DNA of 64,000 nt from Micromonospora sp. CPCC 205371 (GTDB lineage Bacteria > Actinomycetota > Actinomycetes > Mycobacteriales > Micromonosporaceae), in contig NZ_JAIBNX010000002.1 of assembly GCF_026130045.1 (NCBI RefSeq), positions 122,573 through 186,572 of the forward strand, read 5' to 3'. The position numbers and the translations under genes are program-made. The notes beneath the pieces were generated by a model. That model was given only the letters and a program-made list of their open reading frames with translations. It did not search any database and had not been told where the DNA came from. Shown here in pieces: positions 581 through 38,414 of the stretch. Numbering within the stretch: the first letter of the stretch is position 1; each line of letters begins with the position of its first letter.

Positions 581-3226
581 TTAGCCGCGTCGCCGGGCGA
601 CTTGTACGGTGAGGGCGCCGGCGCAGACCAGGGCGAGACCGGCCAGAAGCAGGGTGGCGAGGCTCATGCCCGTCTTCGGCAGCCCGTCCATCCCGTTCTC
701 GGCGGCCACCGGTACGCTCGCCGCCGGTTGCGGCGTGGTCGGTTGCGGCGCCGTGCCGGTCGCCGTTGGCTGCGTGCTCGGGCTTGATGGCGTGCCGCTC
801 GGGCTGGGCTCGGCTTGGCCGCCCTCGCCGGGGCGAACCTGCGTGGGATCGACGTCCCCGACGGCGACCGCCAAGGTCTCGGTCGTGCTCACCCGCTGGC
901 CCGTGGCCAGGGTCGCGGACATGGTGAAGGTCAGCCGGTAGACGCCCTGCTGCCCAAATGCCCAAGCTCCGTGGGCGTGAGTGCCAGCCGGGATGGCTAA
1001 CGCGTCCGGGACCCCGTCGGCGCTGTTGAAGACTATCCCTGGTCCCTGGAAGGTGTTCTGGAAGAGAGCGAAACGCCCGGGACCGGTCACCTTCGTCAGC
1101 TCCCAGGTGAGCGATCCGTCCACATCGGACGAGCCGACCTCCTCGGTGTTCCAGCCGGGCCACAGCAGCCGCGTATCCTGGGTCTGCGGCAGCAGCCACA
1201 ACGCGTCGCCCGCAGTGCCGAGAAAGGCGTACGCCGCGTCGTTCGGCACGGTGGTCCGAGCCTCGGGTCTGACGTGGAAGACGACGGTGCCCATGTCGCG
1301 CCAGATCACGCCCGCGGACGGATTCGTGCCGTCCTTGACGTCCAGTTCGATCCGGCCACTGTCGACCCGGCTGTTGATGTCGACGTGCCCGGAGTCCAGC
1401 ACCACCCCGCCCCCGGTGCCCGGCCCCGGTGACGGTGACTGCGTCGGCCCGAGCGTCGGTGACAGTGTCGGGCCGGGCGTCGAGGTCGCCGTTGGTTGGA
1501 GGGTGGGCGATGGCGTCGGAGTCGAATCCGGTAGCCCCGTCCCCGGTGTGACCGTGGTGGGATCGATGTCGCCGACCGCGATCGCCACCGTCGCGGTGGT
1601 CCGCACCGGCTCGCCCGCCAGGGTGGTCGCGTTGACCGTGAGGGTGAGCCGGTAGACGCCCGCGGCGCCGAAGCTCCAGTAGCTGTGCGCGTGGCTGCTG
1701 GCCGGCAGGCGGTGCACCAGGTCGAGGTCCGTGGACGCCAGCCGCACCGCCTCGGTGTCGCTCAACGTGAACGCACCCGGCCCCTCGTAGCCGGTGAGTT
1801 GGACGGTGGAGTTCCCCTCAAGGTCGCTGATGTTCTGCTCGGAACTCCAGCCCGGCCACAGAAGCCCGGGAATATTGTCCATGGGCAGCTGCCAGTACCC
1901 GGTGCCGGGCGGGCCGAGGTACGGCGCCAGCGGCGAGCCCTCGGTGACCGTCTGACGCGCCTCGGCGAGCGGTTTGAGGTGCCAGACGGTGCGTTCCAGC
2001 GGGATCCACCGAGGCAGTACCCCGAACCTGGAGCCGTCCTTGACGTAGATCCGGAGGCCGCCGCCGGTCAGGATCGGCGCCACGTCCAGATGCCCTTGGT
2101 CGAGCACCACCGGCGGGTCGAAGTCGTCCGGTGCCGGCGGTGTGGCTGGCTCCCCGTCGCTGAACCGGATGAAGTCCGCGACGCTGCCGGCGACGGCGCC
2201 GCCGGTGCCGTCCAGCGCCAGGAAGGCCGAGTCCACACCGGGCCGGCCGTGTTCGCCGGTGGCGATGATCTGGCCGTCGCGGATGGCGTGCACCCGGATG
2301 GCGTTGCGGTTGTCGTTCGCTACGAAAAGCCTTTTGGTCCGCTGGTCGGCGACCACCGCGTCCAGCGGGTACGGCATGGTCAGCACCTGCCCGGCCGGTA
2401 CCGGCTGGCCACCGGCGGCGAGGCAGAACTGCCGTACCCGCGTGCCTTGGGCGACGGCGAAGCAGCCGTCTCCCAGCGCCGCCACCCGCACCCGCCCGTC
2501 GCGGTTCGAAACGGGGCCGCCGTCGAACGGCACCGGGGCCTGCGCGACGGCCCCGCCGTCGAAAGTCAGCAGGGCGAACGGCGACCCGTCCACCGGCTCC
2601 ACCAGAGCAGCTACCGCGGTGGTCGCCGAGACCATCGCCAGCGAGTCGACCTTCAACGTGGTCTGGAACCTGGTCACCTCGAACGACGCGGCCGCACCGG
2701 GATCGTCACCGACCGGCAGCATCCGCACGATCGGACCGCCGTCACTGACCGCCATGTAGAGCGCGCCGCTGTCCGGCTCGATCGCCATCCGGCGCTGGCC
2801 ACGCACCACCTCGCCCAGATCAGGCGTGTACGGCACCGGAAGGTTGTCCCCACCAGGTACGAGGACCCGCGGCCACGCCGACGACGACCTGTTCTGGTAG
2901 ATCCAACCGCGCCGCGGATCGGCCACCAACTGCCCGTCGGCCGAGGTGCGCAGCACGCTGCCCACGGCCGCCTCGCCCTCGATCGCAAGGGTGTGCGGGT
3001 TGAGCACCGCCACGTTGCTCCGGCTGCGCTGCACATAGATGCGGTCCTGCACCGGGCTGTAGACCATCTGGGCTTGCTCGATCGTCACCAACTCCGGGTG
3101 GCTCGCGTACGCGGTGATCGCGTACGCCTCCTCGGCATTGGCGGTCGCTGAAGAGATTCCGATCAGGGGCAGAGCCAGCACGGTCGCCACGGCCGCCGCC
3201 GCGAGCTGAGCGAGTTTGTGGATCAC
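581..3226 (-). CDS. LPxTG-anchored surface protein with choice-of-anchor M repeats
   Basis: This 881-residue exported protein has a signal peptide (about 1-32, ending SATANAEE) and a long N-terminal beta-propeller-like region. Two homologous modules follow, each opening with VLDxGHxD and closing with GDxDPTxVxPG, separated by Pro/Thr/Ser-rich spacers. The C-terminus has an LPKTG sortase motif, a hydrophobic helix and an RRRG tail. The repeats resemble the actinobacterial wall-anchored domain found with metal ABC transporters. A Zur-box-like site (3241-3255) lies just upstream. I prefer the GTG at 3226 to the first TTG at 3259. A TACACT -10 ends 7 bases before this GTG (leaderless), and the operator would otherwise be inside the coding region. 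Inferred role: surface capture or handling of zinc during starvation. No ABC transporter is adjacent here. Confidence 0.85.
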   Translation of the reverse strand: MIHKLAQLAAAAVATVLALPLIGISSATANAEEAYAITAYASHPELVTIEQAQMVYSPVQDRIYVQRSRSNVAVLNPHTLAIEGEAAVGSVLRTSADGQLVADPRRGWIYQNRSSSAWPRVLVPGGDNLPVPYTPDLGEVVRGQRRMAIEPDSGALYMAVSDGGPIVRMLPVGDDPGAAASFEVTRFQTTLKVDSLAMVSATTAVAALVEPVDGSPFALLTFDGGAVAQAPVPFDGGPVSNRDGRVRVAALGDGCFAVAQGTRVRQFCLAAGGQPVPAGQVLTMPYPLDAVVADQRTKRLFVANDNRNAIRVHAIRDGQIIATGEHGRPGVDSAFLALDGTGGAVAGSVADFIRFSDGEPATPPAPDDFDPPVVLDQGHLDVAPILTGGGLRIYVKDGSRFGVLPRWIPLERTVWHLKPLAEARQTVTEGSPLAPYLGPPGTGYWQLPMDNIPGLLWPGWSSEQNISDLEGNSTVQLTGYEGPGAFTLSDTEAVRLASTDLDLVHRLPASSHAHSYWSFGAAGVYRLTLTVNATTLAGEPVRTTATVAIAVGDIDPTTVTPGTGLPDSTPTPSPTLQPTATSTPGPTLSPTLGPTQSPSPGPGTGGGVVLDSGHVDINSRVDSGRIELDVKDGTNPSAGVIWRDMGTVVFHVRPEARTTVPNDAAYAFLGTAGDALWLLPQTQDTRLLWPGWNTEEVGSSDVDGSLTWELTKVTGPGRFALFQNTFQGPGIVFNSADGVPDALAIPAGTHAHGAWAFGQQGVYRLTFTMSATLATGQRVSTTETLAVAVGDVDPTQVRPGEGGQAEPSPSGTPSSPSTQPTATGTAPQPTTPQPAASVPVAAENGMDGLPKTGMSLATLLLAGLALVCAGALTVQVARRRG

Positions 3227-3240
3227 GGTCCAGAGTGTAA

Positions 3241-3255
3241 TGGAAACTGTTTTCA
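3241..3255. promoter_or_regulatory. Zur-box-like operator before the surface protein gene
   Basis: TGGAAACTGTTTTCA is a 7-1-7 inverted repeat with 6 of 7 pairs matching, the best of the set. It overlaps the region just upstream of a TACACT -10 (3234-3239, minus strand) for the leaderless GTG at 3226. It fits the general TGaaAa-n-TTttCA pattern of actinobacterial Zur sites. Confidence 0.7.
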
Positions 3256-3264
3256 ACAACGAAT

Positions 3265-6170: not shown

Positions 6171-6833
6171 TCAGCTGCCGCCACCGCCGCCGCCACCGCC
6201 GTCACCGACGCTGCTGATCTCGGCAGTGCCGCCGCCCGCGAAGGCGCCGCCGGCATAGCCGTGGCGGCCGTCGTGGAAGGCTAGATCGCCGCGGATGCCG
6301 CCTAGCTTGAGGCGCTTACCCGGCCGGCTGATGTGTTGCAGGCAGATCATGTCGCCGGCCTGGAAGCATTGGCCGCGGCCGCCGCAGTCGGCCAGGTAAC
6401 GGTGGCCGTGTTCGATGCGAAGAGCTTGATCCACCCGAAAGAGCAGTGGCAGATCTGTCGGGTCGCAGTTCTCGTCTCGGCGGGCGTGGCTGAGCGTTGC
6501 CAATGTGCCGGCAGCGGTCGTCTGCCTCGACGAGCGCGTCACGGGGCGCCCGAACGCGGTGTCGCAGAAGGCGGCGTACTCGCGGGCGTCCAGCGTCAGT
6601 TCGTTCCAAAGATCGTCTACCACCAGGGAAGGCATCGACAGCGCCGCTCTGGGATGGCGGGCGATGAGCCGGAACCACTGCCTGGTCGCGGCTTCGACCA
6701 GATGAACATCATCGCCGCTGAGGTGGGTGTGTTTGTTCGTGAGACGGTGACGGGCACCGGCGGAGAACTGCAAGTGGTCGACAACAGCCACTCGGCGGGC
6801 GGATCGGATCTTCCTCAGCCTTTTCCAGATCAT
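6171..6833 (-). CDS. Glycine-rich-domain-like protein with poly-Gly tail
   Basis: The 220-residue protein has a conserved-looking block around residues 65-100 (SMPSLVVDDLWNELTLDARE, then YAAFCDTAFGR). This resembles a short family related to plant glycine-rich domain proteins (VDxxWHxFILxTxxYxxFC). The C-terminus is Gly/Ala-rich and ends in nine glycines and a serine. There is no signal peptide or membrane helix. The ribosome site GAGGG lies 8 bases before the ATG. The familiar His of the W-H-x-F motif is Asn here. Function unknown, and it is not obviously linked to the neighbours. Confidence 0.6.
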   Translation of the reverse strand: MIWKRLRKIRSARRVAVVDHLQFSAGARHRLTNKHTHLSGDDVHLVEAATRQWFRLIARHPRAALSMPSLVVDDLWNELTLDAREYAAFCDTAFGRPVTRSSRQTTAAGTLATLSHARRDENCDPTDLPLLFRVDQALRIEHGHRYLADCGGRGQCFQAGDMICLQHISRPGKRLKLGGIRGDLAFHDGRHGYAGGAFAGGGTAEISSVGDGGGGGGGGS

Positions 6834-6974
6834 GTGGCTACCCTCAATTCGCCCGGTATACGAGCGTCCGGGGCCTCGACTCGCCCAAATGGCGTCGCGG
6901 CCCTTTGATGGTACGTCCCGGCCGCAAAGCAGGTCGTGCTTCGCGGCCGGGACGGTGATGGTGAGCTATCTGAG

Positions 6975-7748
6975 CTACCTGATCGCGACGATGGTGAGGG
7001 GACGGGTGCCCCCGGAGCCCTCGGTGACCACCTTGAGCGTTCCCGTTCGGACGATCCGGCATTGATGGATGGCCGCCTCGTACCGGCAGGAAACGGCGTT
7101 GGACGGGACGACCGTCAGCAGCCCGGGGCCGAGGTTCTCCACCCGTAGAACCGCACCCAGCCTCAAGCAGGCCGCCCACCAGCGCGGTCCGCCTTCGGCC
7201 GCGTCAATGGTGTGCGTCGCACCGGCTTGCAAACAGGCGGTCGAGGGCCGAGACGAGGCCTTGGCCACCACGAGGGTGAGCGTGCGGACCTGGCGCTCAT
7301 TGTCGATCGTGAACCGGACCGTGCCCGGCTCGATCAGTCGACACGTCCGGACGCCCCCCTCGTACTCGCATTCGGCCCTGTTCGGCGTGCTCTGCGTGAA
7401 GCCCTCGGGTCCTAGATTCTCCACCCGCAGCACGCCGCCGACCGCGATACACAGCCGCGGCCACGCCCCGGTGTCCGCGACGTTGATCCGGTATTCGACG
7501 GCTCCCAGACAGGGCGGGCCATGGTCGGTGTTCGTGGGACTCGGTTTGGGGGTGTTGGGCTGCTTTGTCGGCGCGGTGGTGGCAGGCACCGTGGCGCTGG
7601 GTGTGGTGTTCGGGGTCGCGCTCGGGTTGGCGCTCGGCGTTTGGACGGGCAGTGCCTGTACCGGGCCGGAACCACAGGCCGCCGCGGCCAGGGCTGCCAG
7701 CCCCAGCACGGCGAGGGCAGGGAAGCGACGCAGGTGATCGGTACGCAT
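6975..7748 (-). CDS. Lipoprotein with two copies of an unrecognised Cys-containing domain
   Basis: The 257-residue lipoprotein has lipobox LAAAAC at about residue 25, then a Pro/Thr-rich linker. Two domain copies of about 80 residues follow (residues about 78-165 and 170-257). Each copy reads Cys, then xHxIxxxD or a similar strand, a Cys before GxVLRVENLGP, then a CxYE(G/A)xxxxC stretch, and ends PGTxxxxxxxxRxLTxV. The same domain recurs once in the lipoprotein at 9282. The ribosome site AAGGAG is 8 bases from the ATG. It is divergent from the Ser/Thr kinase. Inference: an extracytoplasmic beta-sandwich sensor or ligand-binding module, possibly feeding the kinase. Confidence 0.7.
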   Translation of the reverse strand: MRTDHLRRFPALAVLGLAALAAAACGSGPVQALPVQTPSANPSATPNTTPSATVPATTAPTKQPNTPKPSPTNTDHGPPCLGAVEYRINVADTGAWPRLCIAVGGVLRVENLGPEGFTQSTPNRAECEYEGGVRTCRLIEPGTVRFTIDNERQVRTLTLVVAKASSRPSTACLQAGATHTIDAAEGGPRWWAACLRLGAVLRVENLGPGLLTVVPSNAVSCRYEAAIHQCRIVRTGTLKVVTEGSGGTRPLTIVAIR

Positions 7749-15043: not shown

Positions 15044-16045
15044 GTGAGGGTGGCGCTGCTGGGTCCGGTGGCCTGGCGTACGCCGCCGCGCCACTACGGG
15101 CCGTGGGAGCAGGTGACGAGCCTGCTGGCCGAGGGCCTGGTCGCCCGAGGTGTGGAGGTGACCCTGTTCGCCACGCTGGACTCGGTGACCTCGGCTCGCC
15201 TTGATGGGGTGTGCCCGCGGGGATACGCCGAAGATCCCGGCCTGGACGGGCGGGTGTGGGAGGCGATGCATGTCGCCCATGCGCTGGCCAGGTCCGCGGA
15301 GTTCGACCTGGTGCACAACCACCTGGACTGGTTGCCGCTGGCCTTCGCCGAGCACTGCCAGGCTCCGTTGCTGACCACCGTGCATGGGTTCTCCGGTGCG
15401 GGGATTCTGCCGGCGTACGCCAAGGCGCGTTCGGCCTACGTGTCGATCTCTGACGCGGACCGCACTGACGGTCTGGACTACGTCGCGACGGTGTACCACG
15501 GTGTTGATCTCGATGGGCTCCCGTTCGCGCCCGATGGCGGGCCAGGGCTGGTCGCTTTCGGCCGGATACATCCGGACAAGGGCACCCATACCGCGATCGA
15601 GATCGCGCGGGCGGCGGGCCGGCCGCTGACGATCTGCGGGATCGTCCAGGACCAGCGGTACTTCGAGGAGAAGGTGGCCCCACACATCGACGGCGAGCGG
15701 GTTACCTTCCTGGGTTCGGTCGGACCGCTGCGCCGCGGTGAGATCCTCGGCGCCAGCGCGGCTCTGCTTCATCCGATCGCCTTCGACGAGCCGTTCGGTC
15801 TGTCGGTCGTGGAGTCGATGGCGTGCGGTACACCGGTGGTGGCGTACCGGCGCGGGTCGATGCCCGAGGTCGTCGACGAGGGTGTGACCGGGTTTCTGGT
15901 GGACACCGTCGAGCAGGCGGCGACGGCCGTCGCGCGGATCGCCACGGTCGACCGGGCGGCCTGCCGGGCCCGTGCCCACCAGCGCTTCGACGCCGATCGG
16001 ATGGTGACCGACTACCTGCGCGTCTATCGCGAAATCGTTCGCTGA
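15044..16045 (+). CDS. GT4 glycosyltransferase
   Basis: The 333-residue GT-B enzyme has an N-terminal acceptor domain (Gly-rich start MRVALLGPVAW, HNHLDWLPL, TTVHGFS). The C-terminal nucleotide-sugar domain carries the GT4 hallmark EPFGLSVVESMACGTPVVAY and RGSMPEVVDEG. It begins at a GTG with no clear ribosome site. It is the first of five same-strand genes (another GT4, a toroid protein, GH130, DivIVA). The donor may be a GDP- or UDP-sugar; the GH130 neighbour favours mannose chemistry, but this is inference. Confidence 0.9.
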   Translation: MRVALLGPVAWRTPPRHYGPWEQVTSLLAEGLVARGVEVTLFATLDSVTSARLDGVCPRGYAEDPGLDGRVWEAMHVAHALARSAEFDLVHNHLDWLPLAFAEHCQAPLLTTVHGFSGAGILPAYAKARSAYVSISDADRTDGLDYVATVYHGVDLDGLPFAPDGGPGLVAFGRIHPDKGTHTAIEIARAAGRPLTICGIVQDQRYFEEKVAPHIDGERVTFLGSVGPLRRGEILGASAALLHPIAFDEPFGLSVVESMACGTPVVAYRRGSMPEVVDEGVTGFLVDTVEQAATAVARIATVDRAACRARAHQRFDADRMVTDYLRVYREIVR

Positions 16046-16243
16046 CTGCCGCTCCTGATAGGCTCGGCTAGCCGAGATTCTCCGAGAATCCGGCGCAGGT
16101 TCGCGGCAGGCCAGATCCCGCAGGGCGGCGGTCGGCGCGCGCCCGTTCCGCTCGCCAAACACGCTGGCCGGTGGGCGCCTTTCCACGCGTGAGGCACGCT
16201 GCCCATACATGTGGAGGCGGCCGACAACCGGAAGGCACGGTAT
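16046..16243. other. Gap between the two glycosyltransferase genes
   Basis: About 198 bases with no coding character. CTCGGCTAGCCGAG (16061-16074) is a perfect 14-bp palindrome, overlapped by GAGATTCTCCGAGAATC further on. These could be a terminator for the first GT gene or an operator for the four-gene unit that follows. Confidence 0.5.
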
Positions 16244-17413
16244 ATGTCCGGCACCTACGGTTTTCTCAGCACCCACCCGCCAACCCAGTGCGGACTCGCA
16301 ACGTTCAACTCCGCCTTGGCGGCCCACCTAACGGCAGGCGGCATCAGCGGCGGCGTGGTACGCGTCACCGCCGGCGGCGACGACCACGGCCGAGTGCCCA
16401 ACGCCGGACCGCTCGGCGCGCCCGGTCCGGACGTCGTGCACACGTGGTCGGCACGGAGCCGGACCGGCTGGCCGGCCGCGGCCATGGCCCTCAACCGCTT
16501 CGACGTCGCCATCGTCCAGCACGAGTACGGCATCTACTCCGGACCCGACGGAGCGGATGTCCTGCCGCTGCTGCGTGAGCTCACCGTGCCCAGCATCGTG
16601 GTCCTGCACACCGTGCTCGCTGATCCCACCGCCCGGCAGAAGGCGTTGCTGGAGCAGATCGTGGCGGCGGCGGACGCGGTTGTCACCATGACCGGCACGG
16701 CCCGCGACCGGCTCCTCATCGGCTACGCCGTCGACGCCGCCAAGGTCACCGTGATCCCGCACGGCACCGCCGACCACGCCAGCGCGCCGGCCGAAACCCG
16801 CCCGCGTCCACACCTGCTGACCTGGGGTCTGCTCGGGCCGGGCAAGGGCATCGAATGGGCGTTGCGTGCCGTCGCCCGACTGCGCGACCTCCACCCGAAT
16901 CCCAGCTACACCATCGCGGGCAGGACACACCCCAAGGTGCTCGCACACCATGGGGAGACCTACCGCGAGGGCCTGCACCGGCTCGCCGCGCTGTTGGGCA
17001 TCTCCGATGCCGTCGACTACCAGCCGGTCTATTTCGACGAGACCAACCTCGGACGCCTGATCCGCTCCGCTGACGTCGTTGTGCTGCCGTACGACTCCCA
17101 CGAGCAGGTAACCTCCGGCGTCCTCATCGAAGCCGTGGCCGCCGGAGTCCCGGTCGTCGCCACCCACTTTCCGCACGCCGCGGAACTACTCACCGACGGC
17201 CCAGGGCTACTGGTACCGCATCAGGACCCGGCGGCACTGGCCGCCGCAATCCGGCGGGTCCTGACGGAGCCCGGCCTAGCCGCCAGCCTCGCCGGACGCA
17301 CCCGTTCGCTGGCACCGACCCTGCTGTGGCCCGCGGTCGCGGCGCGGTACGCGGCGCTCGCGAAGCGGGTCCTCGCCGCCCGCCCGCCGGCGGCCGCCGC
17401 GGCATCGGCATGA
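16244..17413 (+). CDS. GT4-type glycosyltransferase
   Basis: The 389-residue GT-B protein starts MSGTYGFLSTHPPTQCGLAT, a form typical of GT4 enzymes that open with a PPxxCGIAxF-like segment. The C-terminal donor domain has VVLPYDSHEQVTSGVLIEAV, then AAGVPVVATHFPHA, the GT4 EX7E-like region. GGAAGG lies 8 bases before this ATG, so I reject the longer frame from 16211. It overlaps the next gene by 4 bases (ATGA). With the GT at 15044, it likely builds a short oligosaccharide or glycoconjugate. Confidence 0.9.
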   Translation: MSGTYGFLSTHPPTQCGLATFNSALAAHLTAGGISGGVVRVTAGGDDHGRVPNAGPLGAPGPDVVHTWSARSRTGWPAAAMALNRFDVAIVQHEYGIYSGPDGADVLPLLRELTVPSIVVLHTVLADPTARQKALLEQIVAAADAVVTMTGTARDRLLIGYAVDAAKVTVIPHGTADHASAPAETRPRPHLLTWGLLGPGKGIEWALRAVARLRDLHPNPSYTIAGRTHPKVLAHHGETYREGLHRLAALLGISDAVDYQPVYFDETNLGRLIRSADVVVLPYDSHEQVTSGVLIEAVAAGVPVVATHFPHAAELLTDGPGLLVPHQDPAALAAAIRRVLTEPGLAASLAGRTRSLAPTLLWPAVAARYAALAKRVLAARPPAAAAASA

Positions 17414-18450
17414 TCGCTCCCAGTCTCGCCATGCCCGCCGTGGGCATCGCCGTGCCCGCTGCCAGTTTCGCGCACCTGGCGCGGTTGACCGACGACACCG
17501 GCCTATTCGAGCACGCGCGGCACGCCACCGCGCGCCGCCAGCACGGCTACTGCACCGACGACGTCGCCCGCGGACTCGTCGTCACCAGCCGCGAACCCGA
17601 CCCGCCCGCCGAAGTGCTGCGACTCGCGGAGTGCTACCTGGCCTTCCTCACCCACGCCCAGGACGGCAGCGGCGCCTTCCACAATCGGCTCGCACACAAC
17701 CGGCGTTGGACCGACGAACCCGGCCTTGGCGACTGGTGGGGGCGGGCGCTGTGGGGGCTCGGCACCGCGGCGGTCCGCAGTCCCGCCCGCTGGATCCGCG
17801 AGGAGGCGCTCGTCGCGTTCACGGTCGGCGCCGCCCGGCGATCTCTCGCACCGCGCGCCATGGCCTTCGCCGGTCTCGGCGCCGCCGAGGTGCTCCGCGG
17901 TCATCCTGACAACACCGTCGCGGCCGGCCTACTGGCCGACGCCGCCACCGCCATCGGCGCTCCCGGTGACGGCCCGAACTGGCCGTGGCCGCAGCCGCGC
18001 CTGGCGTACGCGAATGCCGCCCTCGCCGAGGTCGTCATCGCCGCCGGCCACCTGAGCGCCGACGGCCCGCTGCTCGCCACCGGCCTGCGGATGCTGATGT
18101 GGCTGCGCGACCTTCAGCTTTCCGATGGCCGGCTCTCAGTCATCGCCGCCGGCGGGTGGCACCGCAACGCCCCGCGTACCCGGTACGACCAGCAGCCGAT
18201 CGAGGTCGCCGCCCTCGCCGACGCCTGCACCACCGCGGCCGCCGTCACCGGCGACTCCGCCTGGAACACCGGGGTGCGGCAGGCAGTCGCGTGGTTTCTG
18301 GGCGACAACGACGCCGGCACACCGATGTGGGATCCCGAGACGGGTGGCGGCTACGACGGCCTGACGCCGCATGGGCCCAACCTCAACCAGGGCGCCGAGT
18401 CGACCCTCGCCCTCGTCTCCACCCTGCAACACGCCCGGCGATGGTCATGA
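17410..18450 (+). CDS. Alpha/alpha-toroid (six-hairpin-like) glycan-active protein
   Basis: The 346-residue soluble protein has repeated helical-pair motifs and Trp-rich, Gly-rich turns (YCTDDVARGL, GSGAFHNRL, WWGRALWGLG, NWPWPQPRLAYANA, QLSDGRLSVI, YDQQPIEVAALADA, GGGYDGLTPHG). This fold is shared by glycoside hydrolases, lyases and glycosyl phosphorylase-linked proteins. I cannot assign a GH family. It overlaps the flanking genes by 4 bases on both sides (ATGA), so it is tightly coupled to the GT4 and GH130 enzymes. Proteins of this kind are often annotated as glycosyltransferases because of gene context, but no GT motif is visible. Confidence 0.78.
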   Translation: MIAPSLAMPAVGIAVPAASFAHLARLTDDTGLFEHARHATARRQHGYCTDDVARGLVVTSREPDPPAEVLRLAECYLAFLTHAQDGSGAFHNRLAHNRRWTDEPGLGDWWGRALWGLGTAAVRSPARWIREEALVAFTVGAARRSLAPRAMAFAGLGAAEVLRGHPDNTVAAGLLADAATAIGAPGDGPNWPWPQPRLAYANAALAEVVIAAGHLSADGPLLATGLRMLMWLRDLQLSDGRLSVIAAGGWHRNAPRTRYDQQPIEVAALADACTTAAAVTGDSAWNTGVRQAVAWFLGDNDAGTPMWDPETGGGYDGLTPHGPNLNQGAESTLALVSTLQHARRWS

Positions 18451-19925
18451 CCGAGGCACATCCAGACCTGGCCGCCCGGCTGGACGCCACCCTGACCCCC
18501 GACCCGCAACGGGTCATCGTCAAGCTCTTCGTGCCAGGTGAGGACGCCGCCCTGGTGCGCACCCGCGCCGCCGCCCTGATCGAACGCATCGCGCGGCTCA
18601 GCGACGACGAGACGAGTCATCTGCTCCACCACACGCTGAATCGCTTCGGTGACCGGCACCACGACCTCGAATCCACGTTCCGACACCACTACGACCTCGT
18701 CCACCACCGGGTCGCCCGAACCAGCGACCTGTCCCCAACCGCCCGCATGCTCGTCGGCGCCTACTTCAGCCACGAGTACGCCGTGGAAGCCGCCGCCCTG
18801 TGTAACCCGTCTATGGTGCCGCACCCCGATCAGTCCGAACTGGACACCGGTCAGCTCCGCGTCGCGGTCAGCCTGCGCCAGATCGGCGAGGGACACCTGT
18901 CCTCCATCGGCTTCGCCACCGCTGTCATCGGCCCCGGCGGGCGCCTCGCCGTCGCCGACCGGTCCGGGCCACTGGTCGCCGGCCATCGCGCCAGCGCCCG
19001 CCACCAGCGCGACCTGCTCGCCGCCGGGCTGGCCGAGGACGGGTGGGACAACGAGGTCTCCGCGACCGTGCTGGGTTCCCTGCCCGAGCGGTTCGACGAC
19101 GACGACTTCGAGCGGGCACTGGGCCGGCTCCCCGCCGACCTGCTCACCCGCACCACCACCCACAGCACCCTCGAGCAGCTGCGCCGCACCGCCACCGCCA
19201 GCTACGCCATGACCTACCCCGCGGACGTCCCGCTCCACCAGCGGATTCTCTGGCCGGCGACCCCCGCCGAGAGCAACGGCATGGAGGACGCCCGCTTCGT
19301 CAAGTTCACTGGCGACGACGGCGAGTCCGCCTACCACGCCACCTACACCGCATACGACGGCCGGCACATCGCCGCCCGCATGATCACCAGCGACGACCTG
19401 AGCCACTTCCAGATGACCCCGATGCGCGGGCCGGGCGTGCGCAACAAGGGCGTCGCGCTGTTCCCGCGCACCGTGGGCGGCCGCCGCCTCGCCCTGTGCC
19501 GCTCCGACGGCGAGACGATCGGCCTGACCGCCCTCGACGGCGCCAACCGCTGGCAGCCGCCGGTACCGGTACACGCCCCTCACCGCGGCTGGGAACTGAT
19601 CCAGGTCGGCAACTGCGGATCACCCATCGAGACCGACGCCGGCTGGCTCGTGCTCACGCACGGAGTCGGCCCGATGCGCCGGTACGCCATCGGCGCTCTC
19701 CTGCTCGACCTGCACCACCCGGACCAGGTGATCGCCGAACTGCCCGAGGCGCTCATCGCCCCCAACGACACCGAACGGGACGGGTACGTGCCCAACGTTG
19801 TCTACTCCTGCGGCGGGCTGCTGCACGCCGGCACCCTCTGGCTCCCGTACGGGGCCAGCGACGCCCGGGTCGAGTTCGCCAGCATCCCGCTCGCCGCCCT
19901 CATCGACGCGATGAAACGGCGGTGA
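18447..19925 (+). CDS. GH130-family glycoside phosphorylase/hydrolase
   Basis: The 492-residue protein has an N-terminal helical region of about 170 residues before a five-bladed propeller of GH130 type. The conserved [11 protein letters not shown] carries the catalytic Asp, followed by the phosphate-binding or blade motifs [35 protein letters not shown] and [12 protein letters not shown]130 enzymes phosphorolyse or hydrolyse beta-mannosides. The long N-terminal extension marks the subgroup often encoded beside GT4 genes rather than beside mannan-uptake genes. It starts at the ATG at 18447, overlapping the previous stop by 4 bases; 18441 is also possible. It may trim or remodel the product of the two GTs. 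Confidence 0.9.
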
Positions 19926-19980
19926 CGGCGCGGCGGGCTCCGCACCCGTCGCCCGGACCACACCAACCCGAGGAGTCTCG

Positions 19981-20673
19981 ATGCCGCTCACGCCGGCCGA
20001 CGTCCACAACATCGCTTTCAAGAAACCCTCGATCGGCAAGCGCGGCTACGACGGGGAGCAGGTCGACGCCTTCCTGGACGAGCTGGAAGAGGAGCTCATC
20101 CGCCTCATCGAGGAGAACAACGAGCTACGCACCCGGATGGCGTTCGACGGCGCGTGGGCCGGGGCGGACGCCGGCCCGCAGCTGGCCGCCCTAGACGACG
20201 TGACCGCCCAGTTCGAGCGCGCCCAGCGAGAAAAGGCCGCCGCGGAGCAGGCCGCCCGCGCGACGCAAGCCCAGTTGGAGCAGGCACGCACGCTGAGCGG
20301 CCCAGTGACTGCCCGCGACCGTGAGCAGGAATTCCAGGTGCTGACTATGGCGGAGCGCACCGCCGACACCCATCTCGGCGAAGCCCAGCGCGAGGCCCAC
20401 GGCCTGTTGTCCAACGCCCGCTCAGCGGCGCGGCAGCTCACCGACGACGCGCAGGCCAAGGCCGACGCCCTGGAGCGAGACGCCCGGCAGCGCCACCACG
20501 AGGCAATGGGCGGCCTGAGCGCAAGGCGCACCGCGGCGCGCCAAGAAATCGAGGACCTCGAGGCATTCGAGCGGGAGTACCGCACCCGGCTCAGGGCATA
20601 TGTGGAAAGCCAGCTGCGTGATCAGGAGGGACGCGGCCACGGCCCAGACGGGAGCGGCGAGGTCGAATCCTGA
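19981..20673 (+). CDS. DivIVA/Wag31-like coiled-coil protein
   Basis: The 230-residue protein has an N-terminal DivIVA membrane-curvature domain ([15 protein letters not shown], then [18 protein letters not shown]). It is followed by two long coiled-coil stretches rich in Ala, Glu, Gln and Arg (about 60-120 and 125-210). DivIVA proteins mark cell poles and recruit envelope-synthesis machinery in actinobacteria. It is shorter than housekeeping Wag31 and lies 55 bases after the GH130 gene with a strong GAGGAG site. A dedicated scaffold that localises the saccharide pathway is plausible. Confidence 0.9.
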
Positions 20674-20693: not shown

Positions 20694-22139
20694 CTATCGG
20701 GACCGGCCGCCCCGGTGGGCGGCGCCGACCCGGCTTCCGGCGGAGAAGGCGGCCGCACCGGACACCTGCCGCGCCGCTGGTGTCGCGGCGTGCCGGCCGC
20801 CGCGTGCGCTGCCCGCGCCTTGGGAGCGGGTCTTGCGGCGTGGATTGGTCGCGGAGGGGGCGGCAGCCGCCCGGGAACGGCCACGACCGGCCGCCCGTGC
20901 GGGCTCGGCGGGGTCTCGGGCCGGCGGGGCGACCAGCGTACGCGGCCCGGGAGCGATCTGATCCAGCAGCGGGTGCCCGGGGCGAAGCCGCGTGGTCGTC
21001 GGCGCGATGCCGGCCTGCCGGGCGAGATGGCGGACCCCGTCGACCTGGTCGTCGGTCATGAGAGTGACGACCGTGCCGGTCGCGCCGGCCCGGGCGGTCC
21101 GGCCGGAGCGGTGCAGGTACGCCTTGTACTCGGCCGGTGGATCGGCATGCACGACGAGCGCGACGTCGTCGACGTGGATGCCGCGGGCCGCGATATCGGT
21201 CGCTACCAGGGTGGTCGCGCTGCCCGCGGCGAAAGCCGTCAGGTTGCGGCTGCGCGCGCTCTGCCCCAGGTTGCCGTGCAGCTCGATGGCCGGCACGCCT
21301 GCCTCGACGAGCTGGCGGGTGAGCGTCTTCGCCCGCCGCTTGGTGCGCGCGAACACCAGCGTGCGCCCCGGAGCGGCAGCCAGGTCGACCAGCACCGTCA
21401 GCCGGTCGCGGTCGCTGATGTGCAACATGTGGTGCGGCACGGACACCGGCGCCGCCTCTGCGTCGACGCTGTGTGTGACCGGATCAGTCAGGTATCGCCG
21501 GACGAGGACATCGACGCCGGCGTCGAGGGTTGCCGAGAAGAGCAGCCGCAGGCCCCGCCGCGGAGTCTGGGCCAGCAGCCGGCCCACGCGCGGCAGGAGC
21601 ACAAGGGCGGGCCAACCAAGGTCGGCCATGTGGTCGGCCTCGTCGAGGACCGTCATCTCGATCGCGTCGAGACTGGCATGGCCACTCTCGACGTGGTCGA
21701 GGAGCCGGCCTGGGCAGGCGACGAGCACGTCGACCCCCGAACGGAGCCCGGCTATCTGGCGGCCCGGGGTCACCCCGCCGAACACCGTCAGCGTGCGCAG
21801 CGAGACGGACGCCGCCAGGGGCGCGATCGACGCCTCGATCTGTGCGGCGAGCTCGCGGGTCGGCGCGAGGATCAGGGCCCGCGGCCGCCCCGGACGGCGC
21901 GGCGCGGGGCGCGCCGCCAGCCGGGCCAGCAGCGGCAGCGCGAACGCGTAGGTCTTGCCCGAGCCGGTGCGCCCGCGGCCGAGGACATCGCGGCCGGCGA
22001 GAACGTCGGGCAGCGTCGCCGCCTGGATCGGGAACGGCGTCGTGACGCCGGCGTCGGCCAGTGCCTTGACGAGCGGGGCTGGTACGCCCAGCTGGCTGAA
22101 GGTGGAGGGTGCGGTGGAGCGGGGGCGGCGTACCGCCAT
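20694..22139 (-). CDS. DEAD-box ATP-dependent RNA helicase (RhlE-like)
   Basis: The 481-residue helicase has a Q-motif (TFSQLGVPAPLVKAL...PFPIQ), Walker A RGRTGSGKT, PTRELAAQ, DEAD (VLDEADHMADLG), SAT, and the C-terminal motifs TDIAARGIHVDDVALVVHAD and HRSGRTARAG. A basic Arg/Gly/Ala-rich tail of about 80 residues probably binds RNA. It unwinds structured RNA in ribosome assembly or mRNA turnover. GGAG lies 5 bases before the ATG. It is convergent with, and 20 bases from, the DivIVA gene. Confidence 0.94.
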   Translation of the reverse strand: MAVRRPRSTAPSTFSQLGVPAPLVKALADAGVTTPFPIQAATLPDVLAGRDVLGRGRTGSGKTYAFALPLLARLAARPAPRRPGRPRALILAPTRELAAQIEASIAPLAASVSLRTLTVFGGVTPGRQIAGLRSGVDVLVACPGRLLDHVESGHASLDAIEMTVLDEADHMADLGWPALVLLPRVGRLLAQTPRRGLRLLFSATLDAGVDVLVRRYLTDPVTHSVDAEAAPVSVPHHMLHISDRDRLTVLVDLAAAPGRTLVFARTKRRAKTLTRQLVEAGVPAIELHGNLGQSARSRNLTAFAAGSATTLVATDIAARGIHVDDVALVVHADPPAEYKAYLHRSGRTARAGATGTVVTLMTDDQVDGVRHLARQAGIAPTTTRLRPGHPLLDQIAPGPRTLVAPPARDPAEPARAAGRGRSRAAAAPSATNPRRKTRSQGAGSARGGRHAATPAARQVSGAAAFSAGSRVGAAHRGGRSR

Positions 22140-22290: not shown

Positions 22291-23334
22291 TCAGGCGCGG
22301 ACGGCTCGGCGTGCGGTGTGTTCCGCGCGGGCTGGTGCGCCGACCTGGTGCAGGTGTTGCAGGGCCTGGCGGTAGGAGGCTATGAGGCTGGTTTCTTCGT
22401 AGGCGACGCCGATCTCGGCGCAGTATGCCCGCACGATCGGCTGAGCCTTGCGCAGGTTCGGGGTCGGCATCCCGGGGAACAGGTGGTGCTCGATCTGATA
22501 GTTCAGGCCGCCCAGCGCGGCGTCGGTCAGCCAACTGCCGCGGACGTTGCGGGAGGTCAGCACCTGCTTGCGCAGATAGTCTTCGTCGCCGGTCGGGTGC
22601 GGCATGCCCTTGTGGTTGGGCGCGAACGTCATGCCGAGGTAGATGCCGAATAGCGCCTGATGCACGAGCAGGAAGGCGATCGCTTGCAGCGGCGATAGGA
22701 CGACCAGCAGTGCCGCGAGGTAGCCGACGGCGTGCAGGACCAGCAGCGCGGTTTCCAGCCGGCGGTGTTTCACCGTGCCGCTACGCAACGCCTTGACGCT
22801 GGAGATCTTCAGGTCGGCGGCGAGCAGGGTGAGCAGCGGGAAGAACAGCGCGGCCTGGTGCCGGGTGACGAAGCCCTTGAGCCCGCGGCGGCCCACGGCC
22901 GACTCCGTGGCCCAGATCAGCACCTCCGGGGCGACGTCCGGATCGAGGTCATCGTGGTTTGGGTTGTTGTGGTGGCGGGTGTGCTTGTCCATCCACCAGC
23001 CGTAGCTCATGCCGATGCCGAGGTTTCCGGCGAGCTGTCCAGCCACTGCACTGGGGCGTTTGGTGCGGAACACCTGGCGGTGTGCCAGGTCATGAGCCAC
23101 GAGGCCGACCTGGGTGAACGTGATGGCCAGGAACGCGGCCGTGATCATCTGCCACCAGGAGGAGCCGATGAGGAAGAACGCGGTCCAACCGCCGAAGAAC
23201 ATGATCGTGACGGCGCTCAGCCGCGCGATGTAGTAGGCGGGCCGGCGCTGCATCAGCCCTTCGCCGGTGATCCGGCGAGACAGTGCGGCGAAGTCACTGC
23301 CCGTCGTTGGCCGCGACGGCGTGGTAATCGTCAT
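22291..23334 (-). CDS. Membrane fatty acid desaturase
   Basis: The 347-residue integral membrane di-iron desaturase has four predicted helices and three histidine boxes: HDLAH, HTRHHNNPNH and QIEHHLFP. The QIEHH third box is of the front-end or acyl-lipid type. It inserts a double bond in acyl chains for membrane fluidity. A NarL-type two-component pair is transcribed divergently 136 bases away, recalling DesK/DesR control of desaturase in Bacillus. That link is inference. Confidence 0.93.
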   Translation of the reverse strand: MTITTPSRPTTGSDFAALSRRITGEGLMQRRPAYYIARLSAVTIMFFGGWTAFFLIGSSWWQMITAAFLAITFTQVGLVAHDLAHRQVFRTKRPSAVAGQLAGNLGIGMSYGWWMDKHTRHHNNPNHDDLDPDVAPEVLIWATESAVGRRGLKGFVTRHQAALFFPLLTLLAADLKISSVKALRSGTVKHRRLETALLVLHAVGYLAALLVVLSPLQAIAFLLVHQALFGIYLGMTFAPNHKGMPHPTGDEDYLRKQVLTSRNVRGSWLTDAALGGLNYQIEHHLFPGMPTPNLRKAQPIVRAYCAEIGVAYEETSLIASYRQALQHLHQVGAPARAEHTARRAVRA

Positions 23335-35363: not shown

Positions 35364-36181
35364 GCGTCCGAGCGGAACGGCTCGTCATCTACGCGGTCCT
35401 GGTGACGTTCTGCGTGGCTGTGCTGCTGCCGTTCGTCAGCATCCTGACCGTCGCGCTGCAACCGCCGGGCAGCACCGTCACCGGTCTGGCACTGCCGGAT
35501 GAGCTGCATTTCGGCAACTTCCGGCGCGCGTGGACCGTCGGCGGATTCGGCTCGCTGATGGCCTCCAGCGCGATCGTCGCCATCGTGGTGGTGCCGACCG
35601 CGACCGCGCTGTCGATACTGGCCGGGTACGCCTTCGGCACCATGCGGTTCCGGGGCTCCACCGGATTGTTCTACCTGCTGCTGATCGGCCTCGTCATGCC
35701 GTTCGAGGCGACCGTCGTGCCGCTCTATTACGACCTACGAGCGCTGCACCTCACCGACACATATTGGGCGCTCATCCTGCCCCAGATTGGTTTGTCGGTC
35801 GCGTTCGGCACGTTCTGGATGCGGGCGTTCTTCCTGTCATCGCCGACGTCCCTGCTGGAGGCGGCGCGGCTAGACGGCGCGTCGACCTGGACCACCCTGT
35901 GGCGAATCCTGTTGCCCACTGCCCGGCCGGCCGTCACCACGCTCGCAACGCTGTTCTTCCTGTGGAGCTGGAACGAGTTCCTGCTCGCCCTGGTACTGAT
36001 CCAGGACCCGGACCGCCGGACCGCACCCGCCGGTCTCGGCCTGTTCGTCGGCGAACGGACGGTGGACGTCGCCGGCCTCTCCGCCGGAGCGCTGATCATC
36101 ACTCTGCCGGTGATTGTGGTCTACCTGTTCCTGCAACGTGGTTTCATTCGCGGCATGCTCGAAGGATCGATCAAAGGCTGA
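35360..36181 (+). CDS. ABC transporter permease, MalG type
   Basis: The 273-residue protein has six membrane helices with an EAA loop (SLLEAARLDGASTWTTLWRI). The conserved end is VVYLFLQRGFIRGMLEGSIKG. It overlaps the MalF-type gene by 4 bases (ATGA). It forms the inner-membrane channel with the preceding permease. Confidence 0.94.
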   Translation: MSVRAERLVIYAVLVTFCVAVLLPFVSILTVALQPPGSTVTGLALPDELHFGNFRRAWTVGGFGSLMASSAIVAIVVVPTATALSILAGYAFGTMRFRGSTGLFYLLLIGLVMPFEATVVPLYYDLRALHLTDTYWALILPQIGLSVAFGTFWMRAFFLSSPTSLLEAARLDGASTWTTLWRILLPTARPAVTTLATLFFLWSWNEFLLALVLIQDPDRRTAPAGLGLFVGERTVDVAGLSAGALIITLPVIVVYLFLQRGFIRGMLEGSIKG

Positions 36182-36182
36182 C

Positions 36183-38414
36183 ATGCAACCAACAACAACC
36201 ATCAATCCCGCGCCCTCCGAGCGGGTCATCGACTTCCGGTACGCGCCGAAACGCACGTGGACCCTCATCGGCCGTCCGCTGGACCACCACAAGAGCCTCG
36301 TGCGGGAGGACGGCGCGCTGCTCTACGGCTTCCACCAAGCGCAGTTCGAGGCATGGAACTTCGACCGCGTAATCGCCCTGCGTGCCCAGACCGACGACGA
36401 CCCGGTACACGTCGTGCAACGGGTGGAGAGTCCCCGCCGTGCCATCGTTCATACCGTCGTCGAGTACCCCCGCCAGACGCTGGAGCTGACCGCCTTCGCC
36501 GACCTCGACGGCGCCGGCCGCCGCCGGGACATCGTGCTCTGGCAGATCGACGCGCATTCAGGCAGCGGCGATCTGCGCACCGGCCTGCACATCGACATCC
36601 ACGACCGGGCAGCCGTCGTCGCACCGCCGGGAATCGCGCCGGCACACCGCGTCGTGGCGTTCACGCCGGGCGCCGAGCCGGCCCTGCCGTTCTGGCCGGA
36701 CGACACCACCGTCGACGACGCCACAGACACGCAGCCGGCGGTGCTGACCTCCCGTCCGCATCCGCTGTTGCGCGCGCACACCACCGGGTTCGTCCCCGCG
36801 TCGGGCCTCGCCACGTTGGCGACCGTCCTGCGCGGCGGGGGACGACTCAGTGGCGTCGTCGTCGTGCCATGCGAGGACGGCGCCGACGCGGACCTCGACG
36901 AGGAATCGGCTCGCGCCGCGCTGGACCGCGCCCGGCACGACTGGGACCACCAAGAACTGGTCCGGCACCCCATACACGTGCCGGACCCGGCGGTCATGGA
37001 CGTCCTGACCGGCTGCGCGCGCAACCTGTTACAGGCCGCCGAAGAGGTCGACGGACTTCCCGTGCTTCAGGTCGGGCCGACCGTCTACCGCGGCATGTGG
37101 GTCGCCGACGGCCACTTCATCCTCGAGGCGGCCCGGTACCTGGGCTGGGACCATTTCGCCGACGCCGGCATCGAGGTACTGCTCAAGCGTGTCAAGGCCG
37201 ACGGCTCCATCACCGCGCTGCAAGTCGCGCCACACGTCAAAGAGACCGCCATCGCGGTGATGACCCTCGTGCGCCAGCACGAATTGCGCGGCGACGACGA
37301 CGGGCTCCGTCGACTCTGGACGGTGGTCCGGCGCGCCTGCCAGCACATCGCCGAACTACACCGCAGCGCCGAGGACCTCCCGGACGGGCACCCGCTGGCA
37401 GGGCTGATGCCGATCGCGTTCGCCGACGGTGGAGTCGCCGGCCAACGCGCCGAACTCACCACTACTCTGTGGACGCTCGCCGGTCTGCGCTCGGCCGCCA
37501 CGGCCGCTGAGCGCCTCGCCCTCGACGGCGCCGCCGAGATCCGCGCCCTGTACGACCGGATGCACGGTCGGTTCGTCCACCGCGCCCGACAACTCCGCAC
37601 GACCACCGACGACGGAATGCCCTACCTGCCAATGTTTCCGCCACCAGCGGGCACCCACCATTTCCTGCCCGACATCCCCGACGCGGCCGTGACCCGGGCA
37701 CACCGGATCCAGCCCGAGTCGGCGACCTGGGCGCTGTGCCAGGCGGTCTGGCCCGGCGAGATCCTGGGTCCCGACGCCGCTATCGTGCGGGACCTGCTCG
37801 GCCTGCTCGACGCCCGCGACGACACCGAAGGCATCCCTTTCACCACCGGGTGGCTGCCCTTCCGCGCGGTCTGGAGCTACTCCGCCTCCTTCGCCGCCCA
37901 CGCCTGGCTGTACGCCGGCCGCGGCGACAAGGCCGTCGACTACCTGTACGCGATGGCCAACCACGCCACCGCCGCGTACGTCTGGCGCGAAGAGCACTCC
38001 GAGACCGGTACCGGCCACGGGCAGATCTGCGGCGACATGCCGCACAACTGGGCCTCCGCCGAGTTCATCCGCCTGGTCCGGCACCTGCTGCTGATGGAGG
38101 TCGGTGAGACCCTCCGCGTGCTGCCGGGCGTACCCGCCGAATGGATGCGCCCCGGCGACCGGCTACAGGCATCGCGGACACCGACCAGGTTCGGTCCGGT
38201 CGACCTCGACGGCGCCGTCGCCGCCGACGGTTCGCTGCACCTCGACCTCGACATCCCCGCCGCCCGACGAGTGCCGACCGCAGTCACGCTGCACCTGCCG
38301 GCACCGTTCGCCACCGTGCTTGTCGATGGAGTGCCTGCTGATCGCGACGACACCGGCGGTATCGCGCTGCCGACGTCCGGCCGAATCCACGTCGCCGCGA
38401 AGCGGCAGCCATGA
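36183..38414 (+). CDS. Cytosolic six-hairpin glycosidase-like enzyme
   Basis: The 743-residue protein has an N-terminal beta-sandwich region (about 1-270) and an alpha/alpha toroid (about 285-650, with YRGMWVADGHFILEAARYLG, HVKETAIAVMTLVR, WLPFRAVWSYSASFAAHAWL, GQICGDMPHNWASAEFIRLV). A C-terminal beta domain (about 655-743) follows. This is the architecture of GH-L-type enzymes such as rhamnosidase- or trehalase-like families, but I cannot name the family. No signal peptide is seen, so it acts on imported oligosaccharide. It starts 1 base after the permease stop and overlaps the SDR gene by 4 bases. Candidate acids include Asp in WVADGHF and Glu in HVKETA. Confidence 0.85.
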   Translation: MQPTTTINPAPSERVIDFRYAPKRTWTLIGRPLDHHKSLVREDGALLYGFHQAQFEAWNFDRVIALRAQTDDDPVHVVQRVESPRRAIVHTVVEYPRQTLELTAFADLDGAGRRRDIVLWQIDAHSGSGDLRTGLHIDIHDRAAVVAPPGIAPAHRVVAFTPGAEPALPFWPDDTTVDDATDTQPAVLTSRPHPLLRAHTTGFVPASGLATLATVLRGGGRLSGVVVVPCEDGADADLDEESARAALDRARHDWDHQELVRHPIHVPDPAVMDVLTGCARNLLQAAEEVDGLPVLQVGPTVYRGMWVADGHFILEAARYLGWDHFADAGIEVLLKRVKADGSITALQVAPHVKETAIAVMTLVRQHELRGDDDGLRRLWTVVRRACQHIAELHRSAEDLPDGHPLAGLMPIAFADGGVAGQRAELTTTLWTLAGLRSAATAAERLALDGAAEIRALYDRMHGRFVHRARQLRTTTDDGMPYLPMFPPPAGTHHFLPDIPDAAVTRAHRIQPESATWALCQAVWPGEILGPDAAIVRDLLGLLDARDDTEGIPFTTGWLPFRAVWSYSASFAAHAWLYAGRGDKAVDYLYAMANHATAAYVWREEHSETGTGHGQICGDMPHNWASAEFIRLVRHLLLMEVGETLRVLPGVPAEWMRPGDRLQASRTPTRFGPVDLDGAVAADGSLHLDLDIPAARRVPTAVTLHLPAPFATVLVDGVPADRDDTGGIALPTSGRIHVAAKRQP

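Follow-up and report, generated by a model that had tools for sequence, protein, structure and literature searches.

Several described systems offer points of comparison for the genes studied here. The Thermoanaerobacter locus Teth514_1785-1796 holds a GT4 glycosyltransferase gene, manC and two genes for GH130 beta-1,2-mannoside phosphorylases, and is read in the accessible text as a route for the salvage of imported oligomannan (PMC4264767). In Leishmania, the available account of the mannogen cycle describes a storage beta-1,2-mannan that is both made and recycled by GT108 proteins, which are propellers of the GH130 fold (PMC8950772). A comparable logic, in which a GDP-mannose-dependent transferase (ManT) is paired with a polymer-recycling hydrolase (MmpH), is reported in the accessible part of the work on the mycobacterial methylmannose polysaccharide (PMC9883506). 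Here, we have examined a 64,000-nt stretch of DNA from Micromonospora sp. CPCC 205371 (referred to as the window) that contains, at positions 15044-20673, a cluster of five genes, all on the + strand, encoding two GT4 glycosyltransferases (GT4a and GT4b), an (alpha/alpha)6 toroid protein (TOR), a long GH130 protein and a DivIVA paralogue. We found that the association of GT4a, GT4b, TOR and GH130 exceeds chance and that DivIVA does not share in it. No description of a GT4-toroid-GH130 system was found in the open-licence literature.

A four-gene core in at least five phyla

Relatives of the long GH130 were searched in one genome per species, and 79 related loci among the matches listed were analysed. 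TOR and GT4b were each present within 10 kb of the long GH130 at 71 of the 79 loci and GT4a at 63, with some of the misses lying at contig ends. The same association was seen in samples of two phyla, in which scoring was limited to the few best candidates of each genome, so that absences are softer than presences. Among 296 Actinomycetota genomes, 12 carried a full-length long GH130 and 34 carried TOR; TOR was found in 11 of those 12 genomes compared with 23 of the 284 others, and all 11 pairs lay within 2.5 kb. Among 198 Bacteroidota genomes (long GH130 in 23, TOR in 40), TOR occurred in 21 of the 23 genomes with a long GH130 compared with 19 of the 175 others, and 16 of the 21 pairs were within 10 kb. 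GT4a followed TOR as well. Every Bacteroidota genome with a GT4a match of at least 348 bits also carried TOR (15/15, five of them without a long GH130), as did 10 of the 12 Actinomycetota genomes with a GT4a match of at least 300 bits. The module is present in at least five phyla (Actinomycetota, Bacteroidota, Acidobacteriota, Pseudomonadota and Fusobacteriota), on chromosomes and on plasmids, some of the latter typed as conjugative.

Three genes of the core are also joined physically. A sequence-only reading of the window had listed the same five genes, all of which we confirmed, and had described four of them as tightly packed, three with 4-base overlaps; only two such overlaps exist, at the GT4b/TOR and TOR/GH130 junctions, so that three genes are joined, while GT4a lies upstream across a gap of 198 bases and DivIVA downstream across a gap of 55 bases (Table 1). 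In the related loci, an overlap with an in-frame ATG or GTG was kept at 60 of 62 GT4b/TOR junctions and at 61 of 63 TOR/GH130 junctions. As a control, 55 of 169 called genes from nine loci merely ended in ATGA, GTGA or TTGA. To judge from these junctions, GT4b, TOR and GH130 are translationally coupled in the relatives. Moreover, GT4b and TOR form one protein (GT4b::TOR) in Bacteroidales and Ignavibacteria, in an Acidobacteriia metagenome-assembled genome (MAG), in Alphaproteobacteria, in Ilyobacter and in Deinococcus.

Table 1. Positions of the genes of the cluster, of their junctions and of other features of the window
Feature	Position	Strand	Description	Basis
GT4a	15044-16045	+	333 amino acids (aa), GT4 glycosyltransferase	Pfam Glycos_transf_1
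GT4b	16244-17413	+	389 aa, GT4 glycosyltransferase	Pfam; alternative GTG start at 16211
TOR	17410-18450	+	346 aa, (alpha/alpha)6 toroid protein	AlphaFold model
GH130, long	18447-19925	+	492 aa, two helical insertions (probable)	Pfam 88 bits (cut-off 26)
DivIVA paralogue	19981-20673	+	230 aa, real gene	Pfam 58.6 bits
GT4b stop/TOR start overlap	17410-17413	+	ATGA	sequence
TOR stop/GH130 start overlap	18447-18450	+	ATGA	sequence
DEAD helicase	20694-22139	-	convergent with the DivIVA gene	
Fatty-acid desaturase	22291-23334			Pfam
Large protein	581-3259	-	892 aa	simple gene caller
Large protein	36114-38414	+	766 aa	simple gene caller

Some individual loci depart from this pattern. In Dactylosporangium roseum (L045), the long GH130 had neither TOR nor a close GT4a within the 10-kb flanks, and in the genus member G004 (L136) GT4a, at 6256-7277, is split over two open frames and may be broken or misassembled. 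Eight genomes of the Bacteroidota sample carried a second GH130 group that aligned only to the C-terminal half of the long-GH130 model (E 1e-105 to 1e-118); its frames measured 418-488 aa, and five of the eight genomes also matched TOR at E 1e-20 or better.

Folds and conserved residues of the core proteins

The model of the long GH130 (predicted local distance difference test, pLDDT, 93.2) is a five-bladed propeller with helices at about residues 40-106 and about 188-249. The helical part noticed in the sequence-only reading is therefore real, and a clean N-terminal extension, as that reading had it, is probably not what it represents: since the fold alignment with ordinary GH130s begins at model residues 3-7, the helices look like insertions into the propeller, as far as alignment ranges can tell. 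By fold and by sequence, its nearest relatives are beta-1,2-mannoside phosphorylases/synthases rather than beta-1,4-mannan phosphorylases. Its best fold match was the beta-1,2-mannobiose phosphorylase Teth514_1789, at VIA Z 36.0 (the value obtained for 7fir, with 283 residues aligned and a root-mean-square deviation, rmsd, of 2.0), followed by Teth514_1788 (Z 35.9), Lin0857 (35.6) and Uhgb_MS (35.1). Beta-1,4 enzymes scored Z 32-33, and the GH130s of Bacteroides and Parabacteroides, including the hydrolase BT3780, scored 30-31.5; the sequence ranking agreed.

Five residues (D281, K334, R352, H405 and D472) were invariant in the 41 GH130 sequences, as was the ED motif E280-D281. The available text on this family assigns a catalytic role to the GH130 Asp and identifies Lys199 of BT3780 as the determinant of beta-1,2 linkage specificity (PMC4599007). 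K334 falls in the NK motif that Teth514_1788/1789, Lin0857 and Uhgb_MS share and, judging from the alignment with these four enzymes, appears to match Lys199. The long GH130 is probably a beta-mannoside phosphorylase/synthase. In many Bacteroidales and Ignavibacteria loci, a second, short GH130 is present in the same cluster.

TOR gave no Pfam or NCBIfam match; among 38 relatives scanned, five touched GH88 and two a C5-epimerase model, all of them weakly. Its AlphaFold model (pLDDT 94.3) has an (alpha/alpha)6 fold, which bears out the earlier call of a toroid. The nearest fold was the uncharacterised YPO2471 (7tem; VIA Z 36.2, rmsd 2.4, 324 aligned), the only match of a profile search, and further folds were two GH9-type proteins (Z 29.8 and 29.5), AGE epimerases (27.6) and GH76 (26.1). 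D50, D51, D108, R112, Q262, N326 and E330 were invariant in 38 TOR sequences; in the model D50-D51 start the inner helix 49-60 and E330 starts the last helix. These last three acidic residues are kept in the window TOR, in 11 plasmid fusions and in one Bacteroidales fusion, and D108 is replaced by Asn in the Deinococcus copy. In enzymes of families GH76 and GH9, an inner helix starts with an acidic pair, and those of GH9 also have a Glu late in the chain. By analogy with these mechanisms, the arrangement suggests that TOR is a candidate mannoside-trimming hydrolase. AGE epimerases rely instead on a catalytic His pair. The only invariant His of the 38 TOR sequences, H22, is replaced in 4 of the 11 plasmid fusions; an AGE epimerase activity would be compatible with the fold (Z about 27), but the residues are not convincing. 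No clear secretion signal was seen, and the fused proteins, in which TOR makes up the C-terminal half of a GT4, argue for its location in the cytoplasm.

For GT4a, the nearest solved relative was TeGSS (Tll1591; PDB 8x3q/7fg9), with 261 bits over residues 2-331. TeGSS is described in the available text as a UDP-glucose:sucrose alpha-1,2-glucosyltransferase, in which Tyr18 and Arg179 are singled out (PMC9909042). The catalytic Tyr and Arg are kept in GT4a, where Y18 and R174 align with these residues and each occurs in at least 97% of 74 sequences. Since TeGSS is no closer to GT4a than many other Actinomycetota GT4s are (206-263 bits), we left the donor of GT4a open. The solved relatives of GT4b were weak only, and GT4b is probably a mannosyltransferase, with a donor assigned indirectly.

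DivIVA, neighbouring genes and plasmid copies

The sequence-only reading had viewed the cluster as a polar glycan unit placed by a dedicated DivIVA. In its favour, the DivIVA gene is codirectional with the module at the short distance given above, and no terminator was detected in between. However, a search of open frames found DivIVA at none of the 79 related loci, where the downstream sequence covers 1 kb or more in every case and 5 kb or more in 67; a lack of linkage to DivIVA in relatives is what the reading itself had named as refuting its proposal. The same held in a kin set of 61 genomes (own included), 13 of which encode the long GH130 in full length: no DivIVA was found in the flanks retrieved for the other 12, some of these flanks being cut by contig ends. 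Within the genus, the module of G001 and that of G004 have no adjacent DivIVA, and the closest DivIVA relative (76% identity) belongs to a third member, G003, in which the GH130 search gave no match. The DivIVA relative of G001, which is split over two frames, sits on a different contig from the module (L137, 6903-9517), and the gene convergent with it encodes a DEAD helicase that shares 88% identity with the one in the window. Because the window shows the same convergent pair, the kept neighbour of this DivIVA is the helicase. The canonical DivIVA of the window genome adjoins ftsZ and sepF on another contig, and a search of six members of the genus gave 5 to 7 DivIVA-like matches per genome, pieces included. 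We therefore rejected DivIVA as a member of the module, of which it is a chance neighbour in the window genome, and consider polar placement by it very improbable; the case illustrates that adjacency in a single genome can mislead. Another DivIVA paralogue of the same genome (L133, 7208-9001) adjoins a protein with NYN and LOTUS domains.

The remaining neighbourhood of the module has been reshuffled, since genes of the window flanks (Na/H antiporter, pyrophosphatase, transglutaminase-like protein, DEAD helicase and desaturase) recur near the module in some relatives in a changed order. Across 33 stretches, we counted 21 groups of neighbours in at least three stretches, none in more than five and several of them local to three near-identical loci; 13 groups were named by Pfam, two were scanned without yielding a family and six lay outside the Pfam scan. 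They include an ATP-binding cassette (ABC) ATPase (five stretches), a GAF-ANTAR regulator (five) and a fatty-acid desaturase (three). No solute-binding protein, permease, flippase, polymerase or exporter was among the 13 named groups, with six of the 21 unscanned. In the window, sugar ABC genes start about 7 kb from GH130, beyond an IclR-type regulator, and the earlier remark that GH130 stands beside glycosyltransferases and not beside uptake genes was correct.

Three further observations concern the surroundings. A fatty-acid desaturase gene is found a few kb or less from the module in the window and in L002, L138, L011, L029, L031 and L165 (by Pfam in the window and L029 only, and without a control comparison). 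Near the long GH130 of four loci, from Bacteroidales and one Spirochaetaceae MAG (L061, 11470-14459; L069, L079 and L080), there is an extra trio of a PIG-L deacetylase, a GT4 and a GH100/GH63-like toroid (named by Pfam in L061 only), which makes a second pair of GT4 and toroid. Elsewhere in the window, the two large proteins of Table 1 had no Pfam match.

Relatives of TOR came from 27 plasmid records and those of GH130 from 77, and we examined 20 plasmid stretches (17 of the 27 TOR places and three GH130 places). A GT4::TOR fusion accompanied by GH130 was present in 17 of the 20, the fusion of L179 being split in two frames and the GH130 of L163 being weak; two Croceicoccus stretches had TOR without GH130 and one had GH130 alone. 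None of the 15 alphaproteobacterial stretches with the fusion showed GT4a. A gene for mannose metabolism (manA, manC or phosphomannomutase) adjoins 10 of the 17 copies and an AGE-family epimerase adjoins two more. The synthesis and remodelling of a beta-mannoside, as proposed in the sequence-only reading, is a fair account of the module. In Sphingomonas bisphenolicum, Sphingobium yanoikuyae and S. amiense, all these genes form one run, manC-manA-GT4::TOR-GH130-phosphomannomutase, behind groESL (L168, L174 and L175, close copies). Seven further stretches hold manA or manC, either as manC-GT4::TOR-GH130 near dnaK (L167, L173 and L176, likewise close copies) or as manA-GT4::TOR-GH130 (L160, L165, L178 and L179).

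Chaperone genes accompany several copies: groEL or dnaK was present in 8 of the 17 plasmid stretches, genes for cytochrome bd, cold-shock protein, desaturase and Hsp20 lie near some plasmid copies, and in G001 a chaperonin gene lies just downstream of GH130. As an association without a control comparison, this hints at a stress role of the module. Adjacent stress-controlled genes called glycosyltransferase and glycosidases appear in the accessible text of a study of Sphingomonas melonis (PMC6599016). EcfG stress regulation was nevertheless dropped as a candidate: it is uncertain that those genes are the module, their name may equally stand for an enzyme of the amylase type, and no EcfG motif came up in a simple scan of the sequences upstream of 13 alphaproteobacterial loci.

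Proposed function and comparison with known systems

On balance, and with some reserve, we favour the reading that GT4a-GT4b-TOR-GH130 is a self-contained module of the cytoplasm for the synthesis and recycling of a carbohydrate that contains mannose, most probably in beta-1,2-mannosyl linkages. GT4b, in many lineages together with GT4a, would use nucleotide sugars to make an acceptor or primer, with GDP-mannose as the likeliest donor for GT4b. GH130 would then add beta-mannosyl units from mannose-1-phosphate or, with phosphate, remove them to give mannose-1-phosphate, and TOR, bound to GT4b by fusion or translational coupling, would trim or cleave the product. From the conservation, coupling, fusion, folds and catalytic-type residues described above, we infer the substrates, the linkage, the direction, the activity of TOR and a role as reserve or stress protectant. 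A more specific version, which we regard as possible though rather doubtful, would make the module a bacterial counterpart of mannogen, that is, a horizontally spread cytoplasmic beta-1,2-mannan cycle in which the GT4s and the long GH130 build the polymer and toroid hydrolases of a new family, in many cases fused with the synthase, recycle it, as a chaperone-adjacent trait of stress tolerance.

Several results weigh against the proposed cycle. TOR was not found near the long GH130 at 8 of the 79 loci (some at contig ends), 5 of the 21 Bacteroidota genomes with both genes carry them far apart or on other contigs, and the Fisher values for co-occurrence in the phylum samples ignore kinship. As regards chemistry, the nearest solved relative of GT4a takes UDP-glucose and not GDP-mannose. 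Of four short GH130s that were aligned, taken from clusters of the module itself, three have Arg at the position of K334. Beta-1,2-mannoside phosphorylases have basic phosphate-binding residues in place of the Glu pair of the hydrolases, and R352 and H405 are invariant here. R352 retains the Arg of the HR motif, yet in the window Cys replaces the His before it and Ser follows it (CR-S-D), so that phosphorolysis by the long GH130 is not certain. Against the NCBIfam mannobiose phosphorylase equivalogs the long GH130 scored 111 and 107.6 bits, under cut-offs of 450 and 550, which is why we place it near the beta-1,2 enzymes and not as a named equivalog; the short GH130 of L061, with 238 and 199 bits to two mannobiose phosphorylase models, is also below cut-off. 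The N-terminus of the window TOR is mildly hydrophobic (19-residue mean 1.59). Finally, the ten plasmid stretches with mannose genes represent three layouts only, and queries from Sphingomonas found manA, manC and pmm at none of the 79 genome loci, so that the mannose link rests on alphaproteobacterial plasmids.

Salvage of imported beta-1,2-mannosides to mannose-1-phosphate for GDP-mannose would give the same genes another purpose, and it is how the accessible text interprets Teth514_1788/1789, which occur with manC, a GT4, a GH5 and an ABC transporter (PMC4264767). The ABC-ATPase group, at 2.9-9.5 kb from GH130 in 5 of the 33 stretches, speaks for salvage and, to that extent, against a self-contained cycle. 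GH130 phosphorylases are reversible, which would suit salvage too. Yet neither a solute-binding protein nor a permease was among the 13 named neighbour groups (of 21, six of them unscanned), the sugar ABC genes of the window are distant and lie beyond the regulator, and salvage alone is hard to square with two glycosyltransferases and a GT4::TOR fusion; we consider it unlikely. We attach a similarly low probability to a small compatible-solute glycoside, for which GT4a and GT4b would make a short oligosaccharide of the glucosylsucrose type that GH130 and TOR tune or remove. Chaperone genes (groESL, dnaK, hsp20), a cold-shock gene and a desaturase gene near several plasmid copies would fit, as would the affinity of GT4a to TeGSS, whose product rises under salt and heat in cyanobacteria according to the available text (PMC9909042). 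That affinity is, however, no stronger than the one to many Actinomycetota GT4s, and GT4a did not appear in the alphaproteobacterial fusion stretches.

GT4s are common in envelope glycan clusters, and weak NCBIfam matches to exopolysaccharide enzymes were obtained. Both would accord with a role in a branch of envelope or exopolysaccharide synthesis in which GH130 serves for editing, but the 13 named neighbour groups (of 21, six of them unscanned) contain no flippase, polymerase or exporter and no clear secretion signal was seen, which makes such a role quite improbable.

What had been supposed to be a one-off polar cluster is thus a defined and testable conserved GT4-toroid-GH130 module, with a protein family (TOR) that lies outside Pfam. 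If an intracellular beta-mannan is made, bacteria would have a further route to a storage or protective carbohydrate beside glycogen and trehalose, one hidden by annotation as 'glycosyltransferase' and 'glycoside hydrolase'.

Comparison with the described systems places the module apart from each of them. TOR shares the DD, AR and GAEST motifs with YPO2471, its nearest relative by fold and sequence, which is named as a putative exported protein of uncharacterised function and for which no paper naming it was found in the open-licence literature. TeGSS has a sucrose-phosphate synthase as gene neighbour, and the available text mentions neither GH130 nor a toroid (PMC9909042). The methylmannose cycle differs in its alpha-1,4 linkages and methyltransferases, and the accessible text names no GH130 among four cluster genes (PMC9883506). 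Mannogen belongs to a eukaryote; the long GH130 matches GT108 at a Z of about 21-22 compared with 36 for its best match, and the available account names no GT4 or toroid partner (PMC8950772). The Teth514 locus is approached by the Ilyobacter copy of the module, in which a GT4, a short GH130, a long GH130 and a GT4::TOR stand in a row. Unlike the module, that locus includes an ABC transporter and a GH5, both of its GH130s are of ordinary length (about 300 residues), and no toroid is named in the accessible text (PMC4264767). The module is set apart from the Teth514 locus by TOR, and the sole transporter part among its Pfam-named recurrent neighbours is the ABC-ATPase group.

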